A DNA stretch of 64,000 nucleotides from positions 492,001 to 556,000 of the forward strand of contig LADR01000008.1 of assembly GCA_000961655.1 (NCBI GenBank), in the 5' to 3' direction. This document shows positions 26,050 through 38,776 of this stretch, piece by piece; position 1 is the first letter of the stretch, and every line of letters starts with the position of its first letter. The translations under genes were made by a program, and so were the position numbers. The notes under the pieces are model-generated. The model saw only the letters and a list, made by a program, of their open reading frames with translations, was not told where the DNA came from and searched no databases. The stretch comes from Desulfatitalea sp. BRH_c12. GTDB taxonomy: Bacteria > Desulfobacterota > Desulfobacteria > Desulfobacterales > Desulfosarcinaceae.

Positions 26050-26646
26050 ATGCCTATGGCCAACGACGATAAAAAAATACGCCAGACGGATGGGACAACT
26101 GCCTTGGCGGAACTTATCAAAGCCATTGACCGGCAAGCTGATCAAGTACCCCAAACACTTGTCGCTGAAGGTTTCGAGGTTTTGGGAAGTTTTTCGGCGC
26201 GGGAGTATAAGCGGGGCCGGCAATATGTCCGTTTTTATTTAAACAACACCGCCTTTGCGCTACCATTGAAAAATGCGCTGGAAATCGATTATCTGCCTGA
26301 GGTCACGCCTCTTCCCAATCTTCCCCGCTGGGTTGAGGGTATCTGCAACCTGCGAGGGACGATCGTCTCGGTGGTCGATCTCAAGCAAATCCTTCGTCTG
26401 GAAGAAGGCAGCCATGCGGTCAGAAAGCTGATTCTGATAAGCAATGAAGATATCAGCACTGCTATCATTGTAGAGAAAGTCGCAGGAATGTTGTTCGACG
26501 ATGATGCTCATAAACCCATCGATAAATCGGCAATGACGACTGCACCCTTTTTACATTTCGTTCAAGAGATCATCGCGTATGATGGACAGCCGGTATATCT
26601 GCTGGACGTAGATGTGCTGATGACCGCATTGGCCATATCGGTGTGA
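26050..26646 (+). CDS. CheW-like coupling protein (PilI type)
   Basis: A 198-residue single CheW domain with an extra ~55-residue N-terminus. Signatures are RFYLNNTAFALPLKNALEI, the LPNLPRWVEGICNLRGTIV loop that docks receptor and kinase, and VVDLKQIL. It should link the chemoreceptor at 33088 to the CheA-like kinase at 26767. The ATG follows the previous stop with no gap, so translation is probably coupled; a second Met six bases on is an alternative start. Confidence 0.88.
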   Translation: MPMANDDKKIRQTDGTTALAELIKAIDRQADQVPQTLVAEGFEVLGSFSAREYKRGRQYVRFYLNNTAFALPLKNALEIDYLPEVTPLPNLPRWVEGICNLRGTIVSVVDLKQILRLEEGSHAVRKLILISNEDISTAIIVEKVAGMLFDDDAHKPIDKSAMTTAPFLHFVQEIIAYDGQPVYLLDVDVLMTALAISV

Positions 26647-26766
26647 GGGTCCATGAAAGATTTACGTAAAAAACCGACAGCATTTTGTCGGGCATCGTTG
26701 GGCAGAGAACGCGATTGTCTTCGTCCCCAGTTGTGAAACACGTTGGGTCTATTTAGGAAACTGTTA

Positions 26767-29700
26767 ATGTCTGAATCTTCGGCCGATAGCATCGAACGCG
26801 ATTTTCTCAACGAGCTGAAGGACTATATTCCCGCATTACGGGCCAAGGCCGCCGCGCTCAAAGAGTACGGCGGTGATCCTGCGGACTCGGATCTTGCTGA
26901 ACTGCACAGGCTTGTCCATACGATTCGGGGCGCCTCATCATTGGTAAGGCTCAGTAATCTATGCAAGGTCGCCACCGCGTTCGAAGAGCTCGTTGAAGAA
27001 GTGATCTGTGACCGCCTGACCATCGACATGGAAGTATTCGAGATATTCGTCCACGCGATCGACTATTTCGATACCTATTCTAAACGCGTTCCCTGTAATG
27101 ATGCCTTCGATCCAGCTCAGGCGGCCTGTATATTAGAAGGCCTGCATGGCTGTCGCAAATTTGCCGCTGAAGATAACGGACGAGACTTGCTTTCGCAACT
27201 TTTAAGATCAGCCGATATAGAAACGGCTGATACGCCCGCCACGGGTGCCGACGATGGCCCTTTTGATACCGTTGATCTTGACGCCGAGCTCCTGGTGGCC
27301 GATGACGATGCCCTGGAGATGCTCGATCCTGGTTCTCAATCCGATATCGTTGTCGACCTGGATAACAGAGATGGCGATGACGGTTGGGCAGACATCGACG
27401 TGTCTCAGCAAGAGCTGCTGGAAGGCTTTTATCAGGAGGCGGAAGATCACTTTCAAGATTTGGGTAAGGTTTTAAGTGAACTCGAAACGCAGATTCGTTT
27501 TCCTGCCGAACTTACCGCAGAGCATAAAGAACGATTACGTCTGATTCGACGCTTTGTCCACACCATTAAAGGGGCCGCTGCTGTCATCAAACTCAAACCG
27601 GTTGCAGCATGGGGCCACGAATTCGAAGATGTTCTCGACTGGCTGTATGACGAAGCTGCAGTAATTTCACCGGAAGTGATCCGGGTTATCGCCGAAGCCG
27701 CCGATATCCTGGAACTTCTGGTGAGCTCTCCCCAACAGGCCGACGATAGGAAGTGCGACGCCTTAAGGGCTGCGTTCAGGCGCATCATCGGGTCCGGTCC
27801 GCACCTTGAAGATCGTGCTGATAGTGCATTTTCCGGCGGATCTTCTGAGATGCTCTGTTCTGTTGACGGTGCGCATTTGCCGGATGACGGGCAAGGGCCT
27901 CAGGCGGTTGAGGACGTTAATGTAAAAACGGAGCCGCAGGCCAAAACGTTGCGGGTCGATATGACCAAAGTCGAGTCTTTGGTCAACCTGGCCGGTGAAT
28001 TGACCGTGGCCCTCAGTGCCTTCGACCAGGACATGGAAGGGCTGGGTAAGCTGATTGGAGAAGTCGACCGGGCGCGTCTTAGATTGAAAACCACTGCACA
28101 TGACCTGGAAATGGGCTATGAAGTCAAAGCCATTCAGCAATTAGGTGCACCGCGCACTGACCCGCAACTCGCTGGGGGGAGGGCCGCTGAGAAAACTGCT
28201 GCCTTCTCTGACTTCGATGCGCTGGAGCTGGACCGCTACTCTGAATTGAACCTGATCATTCGATCCTTGAGTGAAACCGCCGTAGATGTTAGCACCATCA
28301 GCCGCCAACTCACTGACATATATAGTGGATTCGATGGCTTTTTGAATCGTTTTCGAATTCTTCTCAGCGAATTGCATCAAAAAACAATGCGCATGCGCAT
28401 GGCGCCTATGTCAACGATCGTCAATCGAATGCGCCACACCATCCGTGAGACGGCCCTGCAGTTGGACAAAAAAGTGCAGTTGACCACCTATGGGGAGCAC
28501 ATCGAACTGGATAAGCTGGTGTGGGAAAAATTGGCCGATCCGCTCATGCATCTGTTGCGCAATGCCGTCGATCATGGCATCGAGCCAGTGGCCATACGAC
28601 AGGCGGCCGGCAAGCCGGAAATGGCTGAGGTTCATATCTCAGCCGCCTATCAAGGCAACCAGGTGGTTATTCGTGTCTCCGATGACGGTGGCGGACTGGA
28701 TTATGAGGCGATTCGCAAGGCTGTCGCATCTTTTCAGCCTGATGAAGACGTAGCGGGAATGAGTGAGGCATCTCTGGCGGATTGGGTGTTTCAATCCGGT
28801 TTCAGTTCTCGTCAGACGATCAGCGAGGTATCGGGTCGCGGCGTTGGCTTGGATGTGGTCAAAGAAAATATCCGTGACTTAAAGGGCAATGTTCGCATCG
28901 AAAAGTCTGGCAGTGGGCTGGGCACAACTTTTTGTATTACCCTACCTTTAACGACGGCGGTCATGCAAGCGCTTCTCTTCGAGGCCGGTGGGCGGCGTTA
29001 CGCCACGGCCCTGTATGACATTGAACAGATACTGCGCGTGGACCCCAAAGAGATCAGCGGCCAAGAGCACAAGACGATCACCATCGGCGGCCGCAGCCTG
29101 CCTTTTTACTGTTTGTCAGAGCACATGCGCGACGGGCTTTCCGAGATACAAACTGGTGGCACAGCCTCGTTGCCGCTGGTGTTGATCGTGGCCGCGCAAT
29201 CCTGGAAAGGCGCGGTGGCCATAGATCGCATGTCTGGCCAAAGAGAAGTAGTCATCAAAAACCTGGGGGCGCATTTGCGTCACGTCCAAGGAGTCGCCGG
29301 CGCCACAGTTATGGGTGACGGAAAGGTTGTGCCCATTCTCAATCTGGCGGAACTGTTGGAAGGTGAGGCAGCCAAGCAGCCAACATCCGGCTATGCCAAT
29401 CGCCATCAGATTCAAAAACCCCTGGAAATTATGGTGGTGGATGATTCGGTGAGCGTCCGTACAGTGGTGGCGCGCCTGATGCAGCGGCAAGGATGGCATG
29501 TGCAAACAGCCAAAGACGGCGTGGAAGCGATCGAACGCTTGCATACGCGGCAACCGGATTTGATTGTTCTGGATGTCGAAATGCCCCGCATGAACGGCTA
29601 TGAATTCATGAGTTCAATGCGTTCGCAGGCCACTTTCAAGAATATACCCGTTATTATGCTGACCTCACGTGCTGCCCAAAAGCACCGGGAAAAGGCCAAG

Positions 29701-29793
29701 GCATTGGGGGTCAAAGGCTTTATGACCAAACCCTATGTCGATGAAGAATTCGTTGCCCTGGTGAAGCAACTCGGTGGGCTGAACGGCATGTGA
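26767..29793 (+). CDS. ChpA/PilL-like CheA hybrid histidine kinase
   Basis: About 1,008 residues. HPt domain 1 carries His51 in LVHTIRGAS, and HPt domain 2 His265 in FVHTIKGAA. They are followed by an acidic linker, the dimerisation/ATPase core (N-box HLLRNAVDHGIE, G1 DDGGGLD, G2 GRGVGLDVV), a CheW domain (ALLFEAGGRRYATALYDIEQ) and a C-terminal receiver with Asp936 in LIVLDVEMP. Two HPt domains plus a fused receiver are the plan of PilL/ChpA kinases that steer type IV pilus motility or cAMP signalling. The start at 26767 is preferred (AGGAAA upstream) over an in-frame TTG at 26743. No cheR or cheB gene is in the cluster. Confidence 0.95.
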   Translation: MSESSADSIERDFLNELKDYIPALRAKAAALKEYGGDPADSDLAELHRLVHTIRGASSLVRLSNLCKVATAFEELVEEVICDRLTIDMEVFEIFVHAIDYFDTYSKRVPCNDAFDPAQAACILEGLHGCRKFAAEDNGRDLLSQLLRSADIETADTPATGADDGPFDTVDLDAELLVADDDALEMLDPGSQSDIVVDLDNRDGDDGWADIDVSQQELLEGFYQEAEDHFQDLGKVLSELETQIRFPAELTAEHKERLRLIRRFVHTIKGAAAVIKLKPVAAWGHEFEDVLDWLYDEAAVISPEVIRVIAEAADILELLVSSPQQADDRKCDALRAAFRRIIGSGPHLEDRADSAFSGGSSEMLCSVDGAHLPDDGQGPQAVEDVNVKTEPQAKTLRVDMTKVESLVNLAGELTVALSAFDQDMEGLGKLIGEVDRARLRLKTTAHDLEMGYEVKAIQQLGAPRTDPQLAGGRAAEKTAAFSDFDALELDRYSELNLIIRSLSETAVDVSTISRQLTDIYSGFDGFLNRFRILLSELHQKTMRMRMAPMSTIVNRMRHTIRETALQLDKKVQLTTYGEHIELDKLVWEKLADPLMHLLRNAVDHGIEPVAIRQAAGKPEMAEVHISAAYQGNQVVIRVSDDGGGLDYEAIRKAVASFQPDEDVAGMSEASLADWVFQSGFSSRQTISEVSGRGVGLDVVKENIRDLKGNVRIEKSGSGLGTTFCITLPLTTAVMQALLFEAGGRRYATALYDIEQILRVDPKEISGQEHKTITIGGRSLPFYCLSEHMRDGLSEIQTGGTASLPLVLIVAAQSWKGAVAIDRMSGQREVVIKNLGAHLRHVQGVAGATVMGDGKVVPILNLAELLEGEAAKQPTSGYANRHQIQKPLEIMVVDDSVSVRTVVARLMQRQGWHVQTAKDGVEAIERLHTRQPDLIVLDVEMPRMNGYEFMSSMRSQATFKNIPVIMLTSRAAQKHREKAKALGVKGFMTKPYVDEEFVALVKQLGGLNGM

Positions 29794-32429: not shown

Positions 32430-32585
32430 ATGGGAATAGATTCATCCATCAAAAAAAATTGGATAGACATTCAGAAGAATCACAATGTGCCCGTGAATGC
32501 GATTGGGGTTAAAATAGACCCCAAAGATGAAAGGACGCTCAAAATCTGGAAAGAAGAAGGTGTCGATAAGTTCGTTCGAAGATAG
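32430..32585 (+). CDS. 51-residue conserved-looking small protein
   Basis: A short gene with an AAGGAG site eight to ten bases before its ATG, between the M16 and the receiver genes. The product is charged (MGIDSSIKKNWIDIQKNHNV, ending in VDKFVRR) with no TM or Cys. It is not recognised. The good ribosome site and the tight operon position support translation; chance is the alternative. Confidence 0.5.
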   Translation: MGIDSSIKKNWIDIQKNHNVPVNAIGVKIDPKDERTLKIWKEEGVDKFVRR

Positions 32586-32646
32586 GGACCAGCTCATAAG
32601 AACCGGAAACTGCTATTTTGGATCATTTTCATGCGAGGAAACCACT

Positions 32647-33015
32647 ATGTCCAGCGAAAAAATTCTAATCGTGGAAGATAGCCCGACGTCTATGCTGCAA
32701 ATCACCACAATTCTACAAAAAAGGGGCTACGATCTTATGTATGCCGTAGACGGTGAAGAAGCGCTGCAAAAGGCTGTTGCGTATGTTCCGAATCTGATTG
32801 TGCTTGATGTCATCTTACCCAAGAAAAATGGCTTTCAGGTTTGCCGACAACTCAAGAATACCCCGGGCATGCAGGGTATCAAAATTCTGATGCTGACCAG
32901 CAAAACACAGCAAAGCGACCGGTTTTGGGGTCTGAAACAAGGTGCCGATGATTATATGACCAAACCATTTGAGGCCAATGATCTTCTCAAGAAGGTCAAT
33001 GAACTGCTGCAATGA
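32647..33015 (+). CDS. Stand-alone response regulator (PilH/CheY-like)
   Basis: A 122-residue single receiver. Acidic pocket EDS in ILIVEDSPTSM, phospho-acceptor Asp54 in LIVLDVILP, Thr in LMLTSKT and Lys in YMTKPFE are all present. Its SPTS start resembles PilG/PilH, so it is probably phosphorylated by the CheA-like kinase at 26767 and signals to a motor or a cyclase. The ATG at 32647 has GCGAGGAAA upstream; the longer frame reaches back into the 51-residue gene and is not used. Confidence 0.93.
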   Translation: MSSEKILIVEDSPTSMLQITTILQKRGYDLMYAVDGEEALQKAVAYVPNLIVLDVILPKKNGFQVCRQLKNTPGMQGIKILMLTSKTQQSDRFWGLKQGADDYMTKPFEANDLLKKVNELLQ

Positions 33016-33087
33016 TAAGGTGCATATCAGGATGCCGCTATTCCCGGTCACTATGTCAGCTTGGGTCGACTGGAGGAGGTTTTTCTC

Positions 33088-35403
33088 ATGAAGTTCGTAC
33101 GTAAATTGATCCCCAAGGGAATCAACTGGTTGCCGCATAAGTTTTTCCCCAATCGCATTCGCAGCAAACAGCTTTTAGCATTAATGGTCATTGCCCTCAT
33201 CCCACTGATAGGCATGGGTATTGTTTCCTACCATTTCGCTCAAGAAGCTTTGCTGAGTCAGGCTACAGCGCAATTGGAAGCCCTTTGCACAATCAAAAGC
33301 AAGACTGTTCAAGAGTACTTCTCAGAGCGCCGCAAGGACCTTGAACAGCTGGCGGATGTCATGGCCCGGTTATACGAGGTTTCTTCCGACAAGATCCAGG
33401 CCGGCGACAGCACGAAGGCCATCAAGGAGGCCGTTTCTTTCCCTTTAAGAGGGGAAAAACGCGATATGGTCGCCCATTATCGGAAAGAATTTGGTTTCGA
33501 AAACATATACCTGATCAGTACTGCAGGGTATGTTTTTCATGCCGCCAATCACGGCTCGGATCGCTACACCAACCTTTTGACCGGTCCTTATAAAAATACC
33601 AACCTGGGACAATTGATCGCAAAGGTCTTAAAGGCCAAGCGTTTCGGGATGGCCGACTTTGAACATTACATGCCCGCCCAGCATGCTCCCGCGGCATTCA
33701 TGGCCCAGCCGGTAATGTCCGGCGGCGAGCTTCGATTCATTGTGGCCGTCCAGCTGTCGGTCAGTCAGATCAATGCCATAGCAGGCGATCGGACGGGTTT
33801 GGGGCAAACCGGGGAGACGTACTTCGTAGGCAATGACCAATTGCTGCGCAATGATTCTCATCGAATGAAAAAGCAGAACATATGGACCACGATTTTAAGT
33901 CAGGACTATAAGATCGATACACAAGCGACCCGCAGCGCATTCAAAGGCAACAGCGGCACCCAATTAACAGAAAACTATGCCGGCCTCACCACCCTGAGTT
34001 CCTGGCAGCCGTTTGTCCTTATAGAGCCTGGTCCGGTGAACCCCGAAGGCATCCGCTGGGCATTGGTCAGCGAACTTGAAGAACGCGAGCTTCATAAACC
34101 CTTGTGGACCTTTGCTCTGGTCATGGCCGGTACCCTGGGTATTGCCATCCTTCTGGTTTTTGGCGGGGCATTTGTGCTTTCCGGCGGTCTGACACGCCAG
34201 ATCCGGCATATCATGGAATTGTTTAGTGAAATCGGCATGGGTAATTTTAATGCGCGCTGCCGTGTCGTCAGCCGGGATGAGCTTGGCACGATGGCCAATT
34301 CGCTGAATGCCATGTTGGACAACACGCTGCATCTGATCCAAAGCAGGGAAGAGCGCGACCAGATGCAAGACTCGATTATGCGTCTGCTGACGGATATTAG
34401 TGCCTTGACTGAAGGCGACCTGACCGTACGGGCCGAGGTTACCGAAGATATGACCGGCGCTATCGCCGATTCCTTCAATACCATGGCCGAACAGCTTAGC
34501 CGTTTGGTGAATGATGTTAAAAGGTCCACCTTGCAGGTGAGTACAACGTCGCATCAGGTCAGTGAAACCACCATTGCGCTATCCAGGACCAGCGATGAGC
34601 AGGCGAATCAGCTTTCACAGGCCGTTTTATCGATCGAGGAAATGTCCACCTCTATTCGCGGGGTATCGGAGCATGCGGCCCAGTCGGCCAAGGTATCCGA
34701 GCAGGCCATGCAAAATGCGTTAAGCGGTGCGGATGCCGTGCGGCAGACCAACAAAGCCATGAGTGCTATCCGCGAACGTGTGCAGGAAGCGGCCCGGGCA
34801 ATCAAACGGCTTGGCGAGAGTTCGCAGGAGATCGGCACGATTGTCCAGATCATCAATGACATCGCTGATCGAACCTCGATTCTGGCCTTGAACGCTTCAA
34901 TTCAGGCTGCCATGGCTGGAGATGCCGGGCGCGGTTTTGCCGTTGTCGCCGATGAGGTGCAACGCTTGGCCGAACAGTCGACCAACTCGACCAAACAGAT
35001 CGAAACACTGGTCAAAACCATTCAAAGTGAAATCAATGAGGCCGGTACCCGCATGGAGGACAGCATTCAACGGGTTGTGCGCGGCACGCAGTTGGCGGAC
35101 GGCGCTCACGGCAAACTGGAGGAGATCAAGGCCGTATCCGCCCAGTTGGCTGAATTGGTCCAATCCATCTCCGCGGCGGCCCAACAACAGGCATTGTCTT
35201 CGGAAAATATTTCCACAACCATGAAAAAAATTGGCGAGATCAGCAGTCAGGCTTCAGTACAGGGACGGCAAACGGCGCTTTCCATCACCAGCCTGGCCAA
35301 GACATCCGAGCAATTGCACGCGTCGGTTGAAGCTTTCAAATTACCGGAAGAGCCATTAGACGAGAACGACCAGGATTTGGAAATTCTCCATGAGGTCGAG
35401 TGA
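33088..35403 (+). CDS. Methyl-accepting chemotaxis protein (PilJ-like chemoreceptor)
   Basis: A 771-residue transmembrane chemoreceptor. TM1 at about residues 29-48, a ~280-residue periplasmic sensor (Cache-like, with [19 protein letters not shown]), TM2 at about 335-360, two HAMP segments ([18 protein letters not shown] first) and a long signalling coiled coil whose tip reads [17 protein letters not shown], with [15 protein letters not shown] following. The start at 33088 is fixed by GGAGGAGG. No CheR-docking pentapeptide is seen at the C-terminus. It is the only receptor of the cluster and probably feeds the ChpA-like kinase. The ligand is unknown. Confidence 0.94.
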
Positions 35404-35417
35404 AAGGAGTTACACCC

Positions 35418-35873
35418 ATGCACCCAACGGCGAGCAACCCCGACACCAAACTATATCGCAAAGCAACCCGAAGCACTCACGGAAAAATCGAATTGGATGC
35501 TGAAGCCGCACGTGTATACGCTGTGATCGATGAAAGCATTCAACTGTCGAAAGTTGCTGAGCTGGCTGGTGTCAATATGGCCGTATTATGGAGGGCCATC
35601 GCCAAGCTCACGCGGCTTGGGTTGATCGAAGATTCGGACAGTGACATCGGCTACATGGGCAAGCCGTTTTTCGACATCCTGCACAAGGAGCTAACCAAAA
35701 CGGTCGGACCGATCAGCACGATTTTACTGAAGAATGTGTCTGCCAAAATGGAGATATCTTTTCCACATATCCCGGTCGATCGTGTCCGGGAGTTTGTCAA
35801 AAAGCTTGCTGAGCAGATTCCGGATAAAAAGGCCGGTGCGCAATTCCATCAAACCATTTCGAAGGAGATTTAA
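35418..35873 (+). CDS. Winged-helix plus DUF8082-like protein
   Basis: A 151-residue protein. Residues ~20-75 look like a winged helix (VYAVIDESIQLSKVAELAG, then LTRLGLIED). The C-terminal half has LTKTVGPISTILLKN and the ending AEQIPDKKAGAQFHQTI, which resembles the DUF8082-type domain often found at the end of PatA/roadblock or kinase proteins. The start at 35418 follows AAAGGAG just after the MCP stop. A role as output or adaptor of the chemosensory pathway is inferred from position. Confidence 0.6.
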   Translation: MHPTASNPDTKLYRKATRSTHGKIELDAEAARVYAVIDESIQLSKVAELAGVNMAVLWRAIAKLTRLGLIEDSDSDIGYMGKPFFDILHKELTKTVGPISTILLKNVSAKMEISFPHIPVDRVREFVKKLAEQIPDKKAGAQFHQTISKEI

Positions 35874-35888
35874 TCAGGAGAAAGAACC

Positions 35889-37040
35889 ATGCGAATCATC
35901 CAATGTGAGCAGTGCGGAAAACGGTTTAAAATCAACGATGACAATGGTGACAAATCAAACGCCAAATACAAATGCAGCCAATGTAACCACGTGATTATCG
36001 TCTCCAAGCCAGTTTCGTCGAAAACCGTGGATCCATCCCGGGATGCTGCGCCGTCGCAATCTTCACGAAAACCCTTCGACGACAAATTGATACTGCCGGT
36101 GGATGCCCATTCCGCCGACGATGATGCACCCGTCGGCCAGGAGGCAACGTCTTCAACTGCGGGAAGCGCCTTTGGCCTGAAAACGAAATTCAACCTGGCC
36201 ATTGGCGCCGTGTTTCTGTGTGCCATCGTCCTGATCTATTTTCTATCGGGGTCAAGGTTGCAAAAGGATGCGGAGCAACAGGTTTTCGATAAAGCACGCC
36301 TTTTGCTTATTACCATGGAGTCTTCGCGCAGTTTTACCAGCAAAGTCCTCAAACCGGTATTGTACGATGCTTTACCGGATCGATTTATCATCGAAGGAAT
36401 GTCTTCTTCATTTGGCGCCCGCAATATCTTTGAGAGAATACGGGCCGTTTATCCTCAATACTATTTCAAGCACGCGGCACCGTATCCACGCAACCTGATC
36501 AATCAGGCCGATGATTTTGAAATGAACATTATCCAGGAATTCAGCAAAGATCCGGATCTCAAAGAATGGCAGGGCTACCGTGTCAAGGGTAGTGAAAAAG
36601 AGTACAGCATCATGAAACCGATTGTGGCCGAACAAGCCTGCATGCTTTGCCACAGTGATCCGGCCCTGGCACCTCAGGAATTATTGGAGCGCTATGGAAA
36701 CGAAAATGGGTTTCATCGATCCGTCGGAGAAGTCATCGGAACCCTGACGGTTTCTGTTCCGGCCAGTATTGTCATGGACAAAGCCCGGGAAAACACCATA
36801 ATCTTTATAGGTATGGTCGCACTGTTTTTCGTGCTGTTGACCCTGATCGTTAACGCCTTTTTTTCACGCGTAGTCCTCAAGCCGATCAAACACCTTGCGG
36901 ATAATGCCAATGAAATCAGTCTAGGCAAATTGGACACCCAGATCGATACGGCAGGTGGGGACGAAATCGCCATGTTGGCCAAGGCGTTCAACCGAATGAA
37001 AATTTCTATCAAAATGGCTTTTGAACAATTGGCCAAATAG
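35889..37040 (+). CDS. Zinc-ribbon, Tll0287-like heme-binding HAMP sensor
   Basis: A 383-residue protein with an unusual layout. Residues 1-40 form a four-Cys zinc finger (CEQCGKRF and CSQCNH, MJ0042-like). TM1 is near 95-115. Residues ~115-290 are a periplasmic DUF3365/Tll0287-like domain with the heme-c motif C251-x2-C254-H255 in ACMLCHSD. TM2 is near 300-322, followed by a HAMP domain (VVLKPIKHLADNANEISLGK) at the end, without kinase or MCP output. It could pass a redox or gas signal to a partner through the HAMP. AGGAGAAAGAACC precedes the ATG. It lies between the receptor-linked genes and the rhodanese. Confidence 0.82.
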   Translation: MRIIQCEQCGKRFKINDDNGDKSNAKYKCSQCNHVIIVSKPVSSKTVDPSRDAAPSQSSRKPFDDKLILPVDAHSADDDAPVGQEATSSTAGSAFGLKTKFNLAIGAVFLCAIVLIYFLSGSRLQKDAEQQVFDKARLLLITMESSRSFTSKVLKPVLYDALPDRFIIEGMSSSFGARNIFERIRAVYPQYYFKHAAPYPRNLINQADDFEMNIIQEFSKDPDLKEWQGYRVKGSEKEYSIMKPIVAEQACMLCHSDPALAPQELLERYGNENGFHRSVGEVIGTLTVSVPASIVMDKARENTIIFIGMVALFFVLLTLIVNAFFSRVVLKPIKHLADNANEISLGKLDTQIDTAGGDEIAMLAKAFNRMKISIKMAFEQLAK

Positions 37041-37088
37041 GCGGTGACCTTGCAGTGCTTCTCATCTGCTTTTTATGGAAGGTGCATT

Positions 37089-37817
37089 ATGAAAAAAAGT
37101 AATCTACGATGGTTGATGGTATGGATTCTGACAATATCTGCATGCTTTTTGGCAGAACGTGTTCAGGCAGAAAATTTTCCGGAAATCACGGCCGAGCAAG
37201 TCAAAGCCAAGCTGGATGCCGGTGAAAAACTGCTGCTCATCAACCCTTTAAGTGATATTGAATTTCAGGACAAACACATACCCGGTTCAATCAATATTCC
37301 ATTACAAAACATTTTGGTGGCTGACCTGCCCAAGGATAAAGACCAGCTAATCATTACATATTGTCTGGGCGGCACGTGAATCGTTTCCTTGGATGCTGCC
37401 CGTTTGGTGGCAAAAAGAGGCTATACCAACATCATGGTTTTCACAGAGGGTATACCGGCCTGGATTAAAGCCGGATACGCCATCAATTCGCCTTCACCGA
37501 TAAAGGGGGCAGCCGTGCCTGCAATAGATTCGGCTCGGCTGCATGCATCCCTGAACGATTTTCTGGTCGTTGATATCCGGCCTGAAAGCGCCTATGACTT
37601 AGGGTATCTGCCCGGCAGCCACGCGATGCCTTTGGCATACCTATCCATGTTGTCGGTTGAACTCCCGAAAAATCGCAAGCTTGTCGTGGTGGATCATTCG
37701 GGCAATCAGTGTCAAATAGCCGCCCGATGGCTATTGAGCAAAGGTTTTGGCGATGTCTGCTGGCTAAAAGGAGGCTTGGTGGGGTACAAAAAGGCGGGTT
37801 TTGAACTGGAGAGATAA
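37089..37817 (+). CDS. Exported two-domain rhodanese, probable selenoprotein (TGA at codon 97)
   Basis: Read through one in-frame TGA (37377-37379), this is a 242-residue protein: signal peptide (residues 1-27, ending VQA), rhodanese domain 1 (~28-125) and rhodanese domain 2 (~140-242). In domain 1 the active-site loop is ITYCLGGT followed by TGA, so a C-x4-Sec pair (C92, U97), where homologues commonly have C-x4-C. In domain 2 the equivalent position is a normal Cys (DHSGNQC). Reading frame and homology continue unchanged after the TGA (SLDAARLVAKRGYTNIMVFT). A SECIS-like hairpin follows at once. The start follows GGAAGG. A plain nonsense mutation is the alternative. It closes the chemosensory cluster. 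Confidence 0.75.
37387..37420 (+). promoter_or_regulatory. Putative bacterial SECIS element
   Basis: Stem gctgcc / ggtggc (six pairs with two G-U) closes the five-base loop cgttt, which lies 22-26 bases after the TGA and has a G in its second position. An outer stem cctt / gagg is separated by an internal loop. Distance and loop G meet the usual description of bacterial SECIS. It would recruit SelB with Sec-tRNA. Confidence 0.55.
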
Positions 37818-37894: not shown

Positions 37895-37946
37895 AAAAAA
37901 AAGCATCCCGGACAATGCGTTTTGCGTTGGTCCGGGATGCTTTTTT
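37895..37946. terminator. Bidirectional intrinsic terminator
   Basis: A perfect stem aaaaaagcatcccggac / gtccgggatgctttttt with a 16-base loop, A-rich on the left and T-rich on the right, so it works in both directions. It ends the rightward chemosensory/rhodanese transcript and the leftward rhodanese transcript from 38776. Confidence 0.92.
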
Positions 37947-38014: not shown

Positions 38015-38776
38015 CTAAAAGTCAGGGGCAAACGGTGTCCAGCCGATATGAACGGGCAATCCGGCATCAGCCCATGAAACCGTTTGCGTGGACTTTGAAT
38101 GCTTATCTCTTCCCGGGTACCCGCGATAGCCATTGTATTTATCGCCGTAGTTATTTCCCTGGAAACCGCCATGGCCATCGACACCGTTGGGCTGATCGAT
38201 TTCGTAAACGGCCGTAAAAAGATCGGTGGTAAAAGCGCGCGTATTAGAGCGTATGCCGCTTCGGCACATGAGTATAATCACGTCATAGGCCTTACTCAGG
38301 GATTCAATTTGAGCGGCAAAATCAGGATTGGCAACATTTTTGCAGCCGGCCTCATCCCAGGTATGCGTCGGAATGTGAATGGATATATCGGCGGTGATTA
38401 CTTTCTTAACTTCTTTTATAGGCAGGAGCACCGGGCGGAAATGTTTACCAGCCTGTGACTTGAAATAGAGAAAATTGTCCCATTTCAGCTCGACTTTTCC
38501 ATCGTACGGGACAAATTCCTTGCCGGATTCGGTTAGAATGCTCTCTACTTTGCCACAGGCGCCGACCCAATAATATTCTGCCGTCGTTCGGACATCGACC
38601 AACGCAACACGCGCCGGTTTTCCAGATTCGGGATCCACTTGTTTGATCACAGCATCAAAGGTTTGATCCGCACTGATGGGTATATTCACTCCGTCAGCCA
38701 CTGCGTTTGCGGTAAAAACAAGTACTAAAAAAAAAGCCATCATTGTCATCACTGTAAGTTTCTTTTTCAATTTCAA
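38015..38776 (-). CDS. Exported rhodanese-domain protein
   Basis: A 253-residue periplasmic protein. The signal peptide (LTVMTMMAFFLVLVFTANAVA) is followed by a rhodanese domain: VALVDVRTTAEYYWVG and the active-site loop LMCRSGIRSNTRAF, with a normal catalytic Cys and the CRxGxR loop. An insertion of ~80 residues between these elements and a Gly/Asn/Tyr-rich tail (GGFQGNNYGDKYNGYRGYPG) are unusual. It should handle sulfane sulfur in the periplasm. It converges with the rhodanese selenoprotein candidate across a shared terminator. Confidence 0.85.
   Translation of the reverse strand: MKLKKKLTVMTMMAFFLVLVFTANAVADGVNIPISADQTFDAVIKQVDPESGKPARVALVDVRTTAEYYWVGACGKVESILTESGKEFVPYDGKVELKWDNFLYFKSQAGKHFRPVLLPIKEVKKVITADISIHIPTHTWDEAGCKNVANPDFAAQIESLSKAYDVIILMCRSGIRSNTRAFTTDLFTAVYEIDQPNGVDGHGGFQGNNYGDKYNGYRGYPGRDKHSKSTQTVSWADAGLPVHIGWTPFAPDF

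Follow-up and report, generated by a model that had tools for sequence, protein, structure and literature searches.

The 64,000-nucleotide stretch of Desulfatitalea sp. BRH_c12 DNA analysed here (the window) carries chemosensory genes upstream of a rhodanese gene and on the same, forward strand, with other genes among them. By Pfam assignment they encode CheW (positions 26050–26646), a CheA-type hybrid histidine kinase with Hpt, HATPase, CheW and receiver domains (26743–29793), a response regulator with a receiver domain (32527–33015) and a methyl-accepting chemotaxis protein with MCPsignal and HAMP domains (33061–35403), in which dCache stays under its cut-off; the tie to a chemosensory cluster drawn in the initial annotation therefore holds. 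A gene overlapping that of the chemoreceptor by 4 bases encodes a 157-residue protein for which domain scans gave no Pfam or NCBIfam match (35400–35873, forward strand). It is followed, 48 bases upstream of the rhodanese, by a gene for a membrane protein (35889–37040, forward strand) in which a zinc ribbon, a Tll0287-like domain (PF11845), a HAMP domain and a CxxCH motif can be recognized and which has no output domain past HAMP; its motifs suggest that it may be a haem redox sensor. On the other side, a convergent gene on the reverse strand (38015–38776) reads as another exported rhodanese-like protein (VDVRTTAEY..., LMCRSGIRS), and it gave no Pfam or NCBIfam match at the thresholds applied. 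Between the two convergent genes, at roughly 37895–37946, lies an inverted repeat bordered by runs of A and T, probably a two-way terminator to judge from its letters.

The rhodanese gene itself (37089–37817, forward strand) spans 242 codons, with TGA solely at codon 97 (37377–37379) and TAA as its final codon, and is preceded by a likely ribosome-binding site, GGAAGG, 6 bases 5' of the ATG (37077–37082). Its predicted 242-residue product begins with a short basic segment and a hydrophobic stretch running up to VQA, before EN, which we read by eye as a signal peptide of residues 1–27 (37089–37169; residues 3–24 are helical in the AF2 model) and which supports the periplasmic export proposed earlier. 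PF00581 (Rhodanese) matches the protein with 97 bits in two stretches, and the active loop of the first domain is translated as Y-C92-L-G-G-T-U97-I-V-S, with the catalytic Cys92 encoded at 37362–37364. The initial annotation thus gave the coordinates, the codon number and the loop correctly, including the C-x4-U pair of residues 92 and 97, and translation together with the alignment of homologues confirms homology on both sides of the TGA. The AF2 model (pLDDT 92.3, pTM 0.80) has rhodaneses as its closest solved folds, multi-domain ones included (3tp9, 6mxv and 1yt8), and places a strand (87–91) directly before Cys92, a loop up to residue 98 and a helix (99–109) after position 97, so that Cys92 and position 97 form opposite ends of one active loop.

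The proposal that selenocysteine (Sec) replaces the catalytic Cys is not sustained by the alignments, in which the catalytic Cys is kept in all aligned members (12 of 12 in alignment A1 and 26 of 26 in A3); the BRH_c12 protein retains Cys92 and has Sec97 as the fifth residue past it. The second domain had also been cited, on the grounds that its residue aligned with the TGA is Cys. That is correct for the BRH_c12 protein, yet not as a conserved feature, as Cys208 occurs in one of the 12 rows of A1 and the other 11 have V, T, S or A, and we therefore dismissed it as support for Sec. Set against the usual rhodanese loop pattern, CRSGNRS, Cys208 sits one place late and Asp202 occupies the catalytic position of domain 2.

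The open frame past the TGA was likewise dismissed as evidence for Sec, since 7 of the 102 TGA-ended frames of at least 90 codons in the window, the BRH_c12 rhodanese among them, stay open for at least 145 codons. Nor does the stability of the hairpin that follows exceed chance by itself: a 49-mer containing it has a minimum free energy of −12.4 kcal/mol and a z-score of −0.93, and single-sequence stability was set aside for that reason. Frame and hairpin alone are thus at chance level, and it is the comparative data, namely the residue column, the pairing register, the loop codon and the covariation, that make them significant. Homologues for these comparisons were drawn from 116 relatives, 395 genomes of the phylum, 277 genomes of one class and a set of named genomes. 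The contigs of the last set yielded no relative when searched with the single BRH_c12 protein; an alignment-based search did find relatives, and the best 80 of its 275 matches were kept.

Across 271 aligned rhodanese domains (every one detected in 209 loci, duplicates included), the residue pair at the catalytic position and at position +5 is C/C in 96, C/U in 89, U/U in four and C/G in seven, the remaining 75 being gapped or without Cys. Where a catalytic Cys or Sec aligns, the +5 column is therefore Cys or Sec save for the seven C/G domains, which we take to be ordinary rhodaneses, and three gaps. Homologues from several lineages read either Cys or UGA at the position of the in-frame UGA, the pattern by which a selenoprotein is recognized.

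Downstream of the TGA, the predicted bacterial SECIS hairpin (37394–37412, forward strand), put forward on the strength of its fold, covariation and published limits, has a 7-bp stem (37394–37400/37406–37412) and the loop CGUUU (37401–37405). It is as first described: the five-base loop occupies bases 22–26 past the TGA (a spacing of 21 nt), with G at its second position. It falls within the bSECIS limits given in section 5 of PMC13188914; an Rfam scan of the 64,000-nt window at gathering thresholds returned no match. For the comparison between forms we fixed the register, pairing bases 19–24 with 30–35 as numbered from the T of the TGA. The count takes in distinct sites matching [C/U]-x-[G/S]-x-x-[C/U] and so is silent on other residues in the column. 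The complete set of six pairs is present in 51 of 83 Sec sites versus 7 of 96 Cys sites; when the Sec sequences were recoded with random synonymous codons, the mean number of full hairpins was 7.0 and the maximum 14 over 200 repeats. Covariation was scored on 40 distinct sequences from the double-rhodanese clade: 97.1% of cells pair, and the score of 0.451 compares with 0.185 after shuffling (none of 500 shuffles as high) and 0.001–0.131 for slid structures. One of five covariation measures, the number of pairs changed on both sides, was unremarkable (3 versus 1.9; 68 of 500), because three of the pairs are nearly fixed by the protein. The loop G comes from the codon at +8, which has the form NG[GT] in all 41 Sec forms as against 1 of 24 Cys forms (ten loci repeating genes under other identifiers having been removed by name, here and from the tree below), so that one residue of the protein appears to be set by the RNA element.

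These features bear on whether the gene is a pseudogene, or whether a sequencing error has turned a Cys codon (TGC or TGT) into TGA. Clade members do carry Cys at this place (L073, L074 and L004, the last identical to L171), and L011, the closest of the TGA-bearing sequences (57% identity over 99 residues), is broken past its TGA, with a second TGA 20 codons after the first and then a tandem repeat. L011 is the one case found of the decayed downstream frames that the initial annotation had named as counting against Sec; since it retains the full fixed-register hairpin, we read its break as a sign that this copy has decayed or been misassembled. The BRH_c12 frame, by contrast, stays homologous for 145 codons past the TGA with no stop, and the gene forms the complete hairpin in the fixed register and has NG[GT] as its loop codon, two features absent from its Cys relatives L003–L005; a Sec paralogue is also present in G023, from the same family. 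Decay or error in BRH_c12 is accordingly a most improbable account.

The genome, 98% complete, has the whole Sec machinery whose presence was to be checked: selA (614 bits), selB (380), selC (72) and selD (373), the last of which itself contains a TGA. The distribution of selA matches that of the Sec form, as it was found in 14 of 15 genomes with a Sec-form rhodanese (the exception, L053, is a metagenome-assembled genome, MAG) and in none of seven gammaproteobacterial genomes with a Cys form. Desulfosarcina cetonica, with a Cys form, has no selA, and the MAG of L074, also with a Cys form, has selA and apparently a Sec paralogue, L172. Placed on a tree, 65 double rhodaneses, 41 with Sec and 24 with Cys, require five changes between the two residues, at least four of them on well supported branches, and the BRH_c12 protein falls in a supported group of five, of which two have Sec (BRH_c12 and L170 of G023) and three Cys. 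Read-through or suppression of the UGA with insertion of another residue such as Trp, or a dual product consisting of a truncated N-terminal domain and a read-through form, could draw on the fact that truncation at residue 96 would spare most of one rhodanese domain; the Cys/Sec column, the hairpin covariation and the Sec machinery with its matching distribution speak against this, and we regard it as very unlikely. From sequence comparison it is almost certain that TGA codon 97 encodes selenocysteine through SelA, SelB, SelC and SelD, directed by the SECIS hairpin.

The tie to signalling genes recurs in the neighbourhoods of its relatives. A kinase, chemoreceptor or related sensor gene adjoins 34 of 65 clade members compared with 2 of 196 other rhodanese matches. 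This is an automatic count within 400 bp; flank lengths differ, fifteen repeat loci were removed by name, and each of the three HMMs derives from genes neighbouring the same double-rhodanese clade. Where rhodaneses occur in tandem, the count misses most of the first copies, as well as the second one in L059; it also misses the BRH_c12 rhodanese itself, which is scored as unlinked because its direct neighbour is the Tll0287–HAMP protein. The branch with CMGxx[U/C] loops comprises 30 rows from 24 distinct loci, of which 21 have, downstream of the rhodanese, a gene for a homologous membrane sensor about 330 residues long, the rest being Sulfurivirga Cys forms; one of these exceptions, L072, has a GGDEF-EAL protein whose N-terminus differs from the shared sensor. 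The outputs attached to the shared sensor vary between SpoIIE (L052), histidine kinases (L057–L059) and hybrid kinases (L055, L066 and L067). Chemoreceptor-type genes occur next to members of the BRH_c12 branch and of the Desulfuromonadia CLG group, as assigned by Pfam (L073, L074, L171, L144, L145, L231, L221 and L223), and by HMM next to L220, L222 and L224. The link is not universal: within the Desulfuromonadia CLG group, with flanks of at most 1.5 kb, a signalling neighbour accompanies 8 of 12 Sec forms versus 1 of 12 Cys forms.

Six loci (L059, L060, L062, L063, L065 and L141) encode tandem Sec double rhodaneses, with CMGxxUPY followed by [HY]C-L-S-x-x-U, upstream of the shared sensor, and so have two selenoproteins in one module.

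The protein could instead be a selenoprotein of metabolism, a periplasmic sulfane-sulfur, tetrathionate or selenite reductase whose signalling neighbours are merely co-regulated. The scarcity of signalling neighbours among the Desulfuromonadia Cys forms would suit such an enzyme, as would the TsoB of the same genome, in which a U-x4-U loop is combined with a DsbD part, and the rhodanese-like ExtH, which excerpts of PMC5877670 place in a Geobacter selenite/tellurite cluster. Co-regulation alone sits less easily with the excess of adjoining signalling genes in the clade over other rhodanese matches, and with the observation that one sensor domain with swapped outputs accompanies the rhodanese. 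We consider a purely metabolic role possible, if rather doubtful.

Our preferred reading, to which we assign a probability of about 0.6, is an exported double-rhodanese selenoprotein with a Cys92/Sec97 pair whose state is passed to a nearby membrane sensor. Cys92 of the N-terminal domain would take up sulfane sulfur from thiosulfate, polysulfide or persulfide, or react with a comparable oxidant, and Sec97 would resolve the product, with sulfide set free and a Cys-S-Se-Sec bond formed, a role suggested by analogy with the genome's TsoB, a U-x4-U rhodanese joined to a DsbD part. An electron donor or partner would then re-reduce this bond, and the C-terminal domain, with Asp at its catalytic place, would be structural or bind the partner. 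The state of the pair would be conveyed to the neighbouring membrane sensor, in BRH_c12 the Tll0287–HAMP protein and the chemoreceptor of the Che cluster, and in relatives to chemoreceptors, sensor kinases or the SpoIIE protein. For the chemistry, the partner contact and the sensory role taken jointly, we see the odds as even.

In this way the rhodanese may report the sulfur or redox state to the cell, and we read it as a putative module of the periplasm whose Cys/Sec pair supplies a sulfur or redox input to signal transduction. The generalization, in which a Sec-containing periplasmic double rhodanese serves as the sulfane-sulfur or redox input subunit for chemoreceptors, kinases, hybrid kinases and SpoIIE proteins, with Cys where the Sec system is absent, is tentative. 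If true, this sensory module would be previously undescribed, with a selenoprotein serving signalling and not bulk catalysis, and the locus offers a concrete, testable case in which sulfate reducers and related bacteria would use selenium in signal transduction.

None of the NCBIfam models reaches its cut-off for the BRH_c12 protein or five relatives (six members scanned), and automatic annotation can therefore be expected to cut such genes at the UGA. Classical TST/MST enzymes are built of rhodanese domains in tandem, the C-terminal one of which carries the active Cys; we rejected this assignment for the BRH_c12 protein, whose Cys92 lies in the N-terminal domain and whose domain 2 has Asp202 at the corresponding position. 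Several rhodanese domains per chain are also found in its sequence and fold neighbours 6mxv (the Francisella tularensis double rhodanese) and 1yt8; in the alignment, the 6mxv loops YCGGGFR and YCGSGFR differ in having no second Cys or Sec. DsbD is an electron-transfer protein of membrane and periplasm, and the TsoB of the BRH_c12 genome (NF045694, 981 bits against a cut-off of 805; G000:C54, L238:2272–4032, forward strand, two in-frame TGA) joins a rhodanese with the loop U-A-G-L-T-U to a DsbD-like part. Its second Sec takes the same +5 loop place as Sec97, whereas the BRH_c12 protein has Cys at the first place, one UGA and no DsbD; at 54.5 bits against NF045694 and a length of 242 residues, it was rejected as a TsoB. 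The double-Sec loop may not be confined to TsoB, as two further rhodaneses (L084 4998–5765, forward strand; L176 261–1025, reverse strand) have the U-x4-U loops YUMGYTU and YUMGYRU with no DsbD in the matched stretch.

ExtH, described in excerpts of PMC5877670 as a rhodanese-like protein of 49.0 kDa encoded with cytochrome and porin genes in the Geobacter selenite/tellurite cluster, resembles the BRH_c12 protein, on that partial account, in being rhodanese-like and in its selenium-related setting. Frames of about 450–485 residues with more than one rhodanese match and a C-x4-U loop (CxGFRUVLS) occur in other Desulfobacterota (L187, L188, L191, L195 and L199) and are possibly ExtH-like; we would guess that the matches of roughly 470 residues in the one-class search are ExtH equivalents.

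The open-access titles and abstract openings searched contain no tie of rhodanese proteins or selenoproteins to chemoreceptors or histidine kinases, and the word rhodanese is absent from the part of the deep-Sep main text available to us (PMC12013277). Rhodanese selenoproteins as such are established: a 2016 survey (PMC5029168), in the portion available, lists as a selenoprotein a 'sulfurtransferase homologous to a rhodanese-like protein', and excerpts of PMC13188914 catalogue five forms, UxxS, UxxG, CxU, UxxG and UxxxxU. The third, rhodanese_LYCAU (NF041203), has by its listed motif a Cys and a Sec near each other in the loop, as here; the BRH_c12 protein was rejected as a member, having CLGGTU instead of CxU and 54.1 bits against a cut-off of 115. 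Form 1 is given in the same excerpts as PF00581 with the motif UxxS (WP_010941598.1), credited in Table 1 to Zhang and Gladyshev 2005, and the BRH_c12 protein shares with it the PF00581 domain and one Sec followed by x-x-S (U-I-V-S); matched by motif and domain, it may be form 1. With UxxS (form 1) and UxxxxU (form 5, TsoB) already listed in what is available of PMC13188914, the initial suggestion of a probable new selenoprotein is not supported in the strong sense. What the locus adds is a single loop position that unites the BRH_c12 protein with TsoB, and with form 1 as well should the motif prove a reliable sign, and a recurrent signalling link that we have not seen described and that is apparently the new part, the selenoprotein itself belonging to a known kind.
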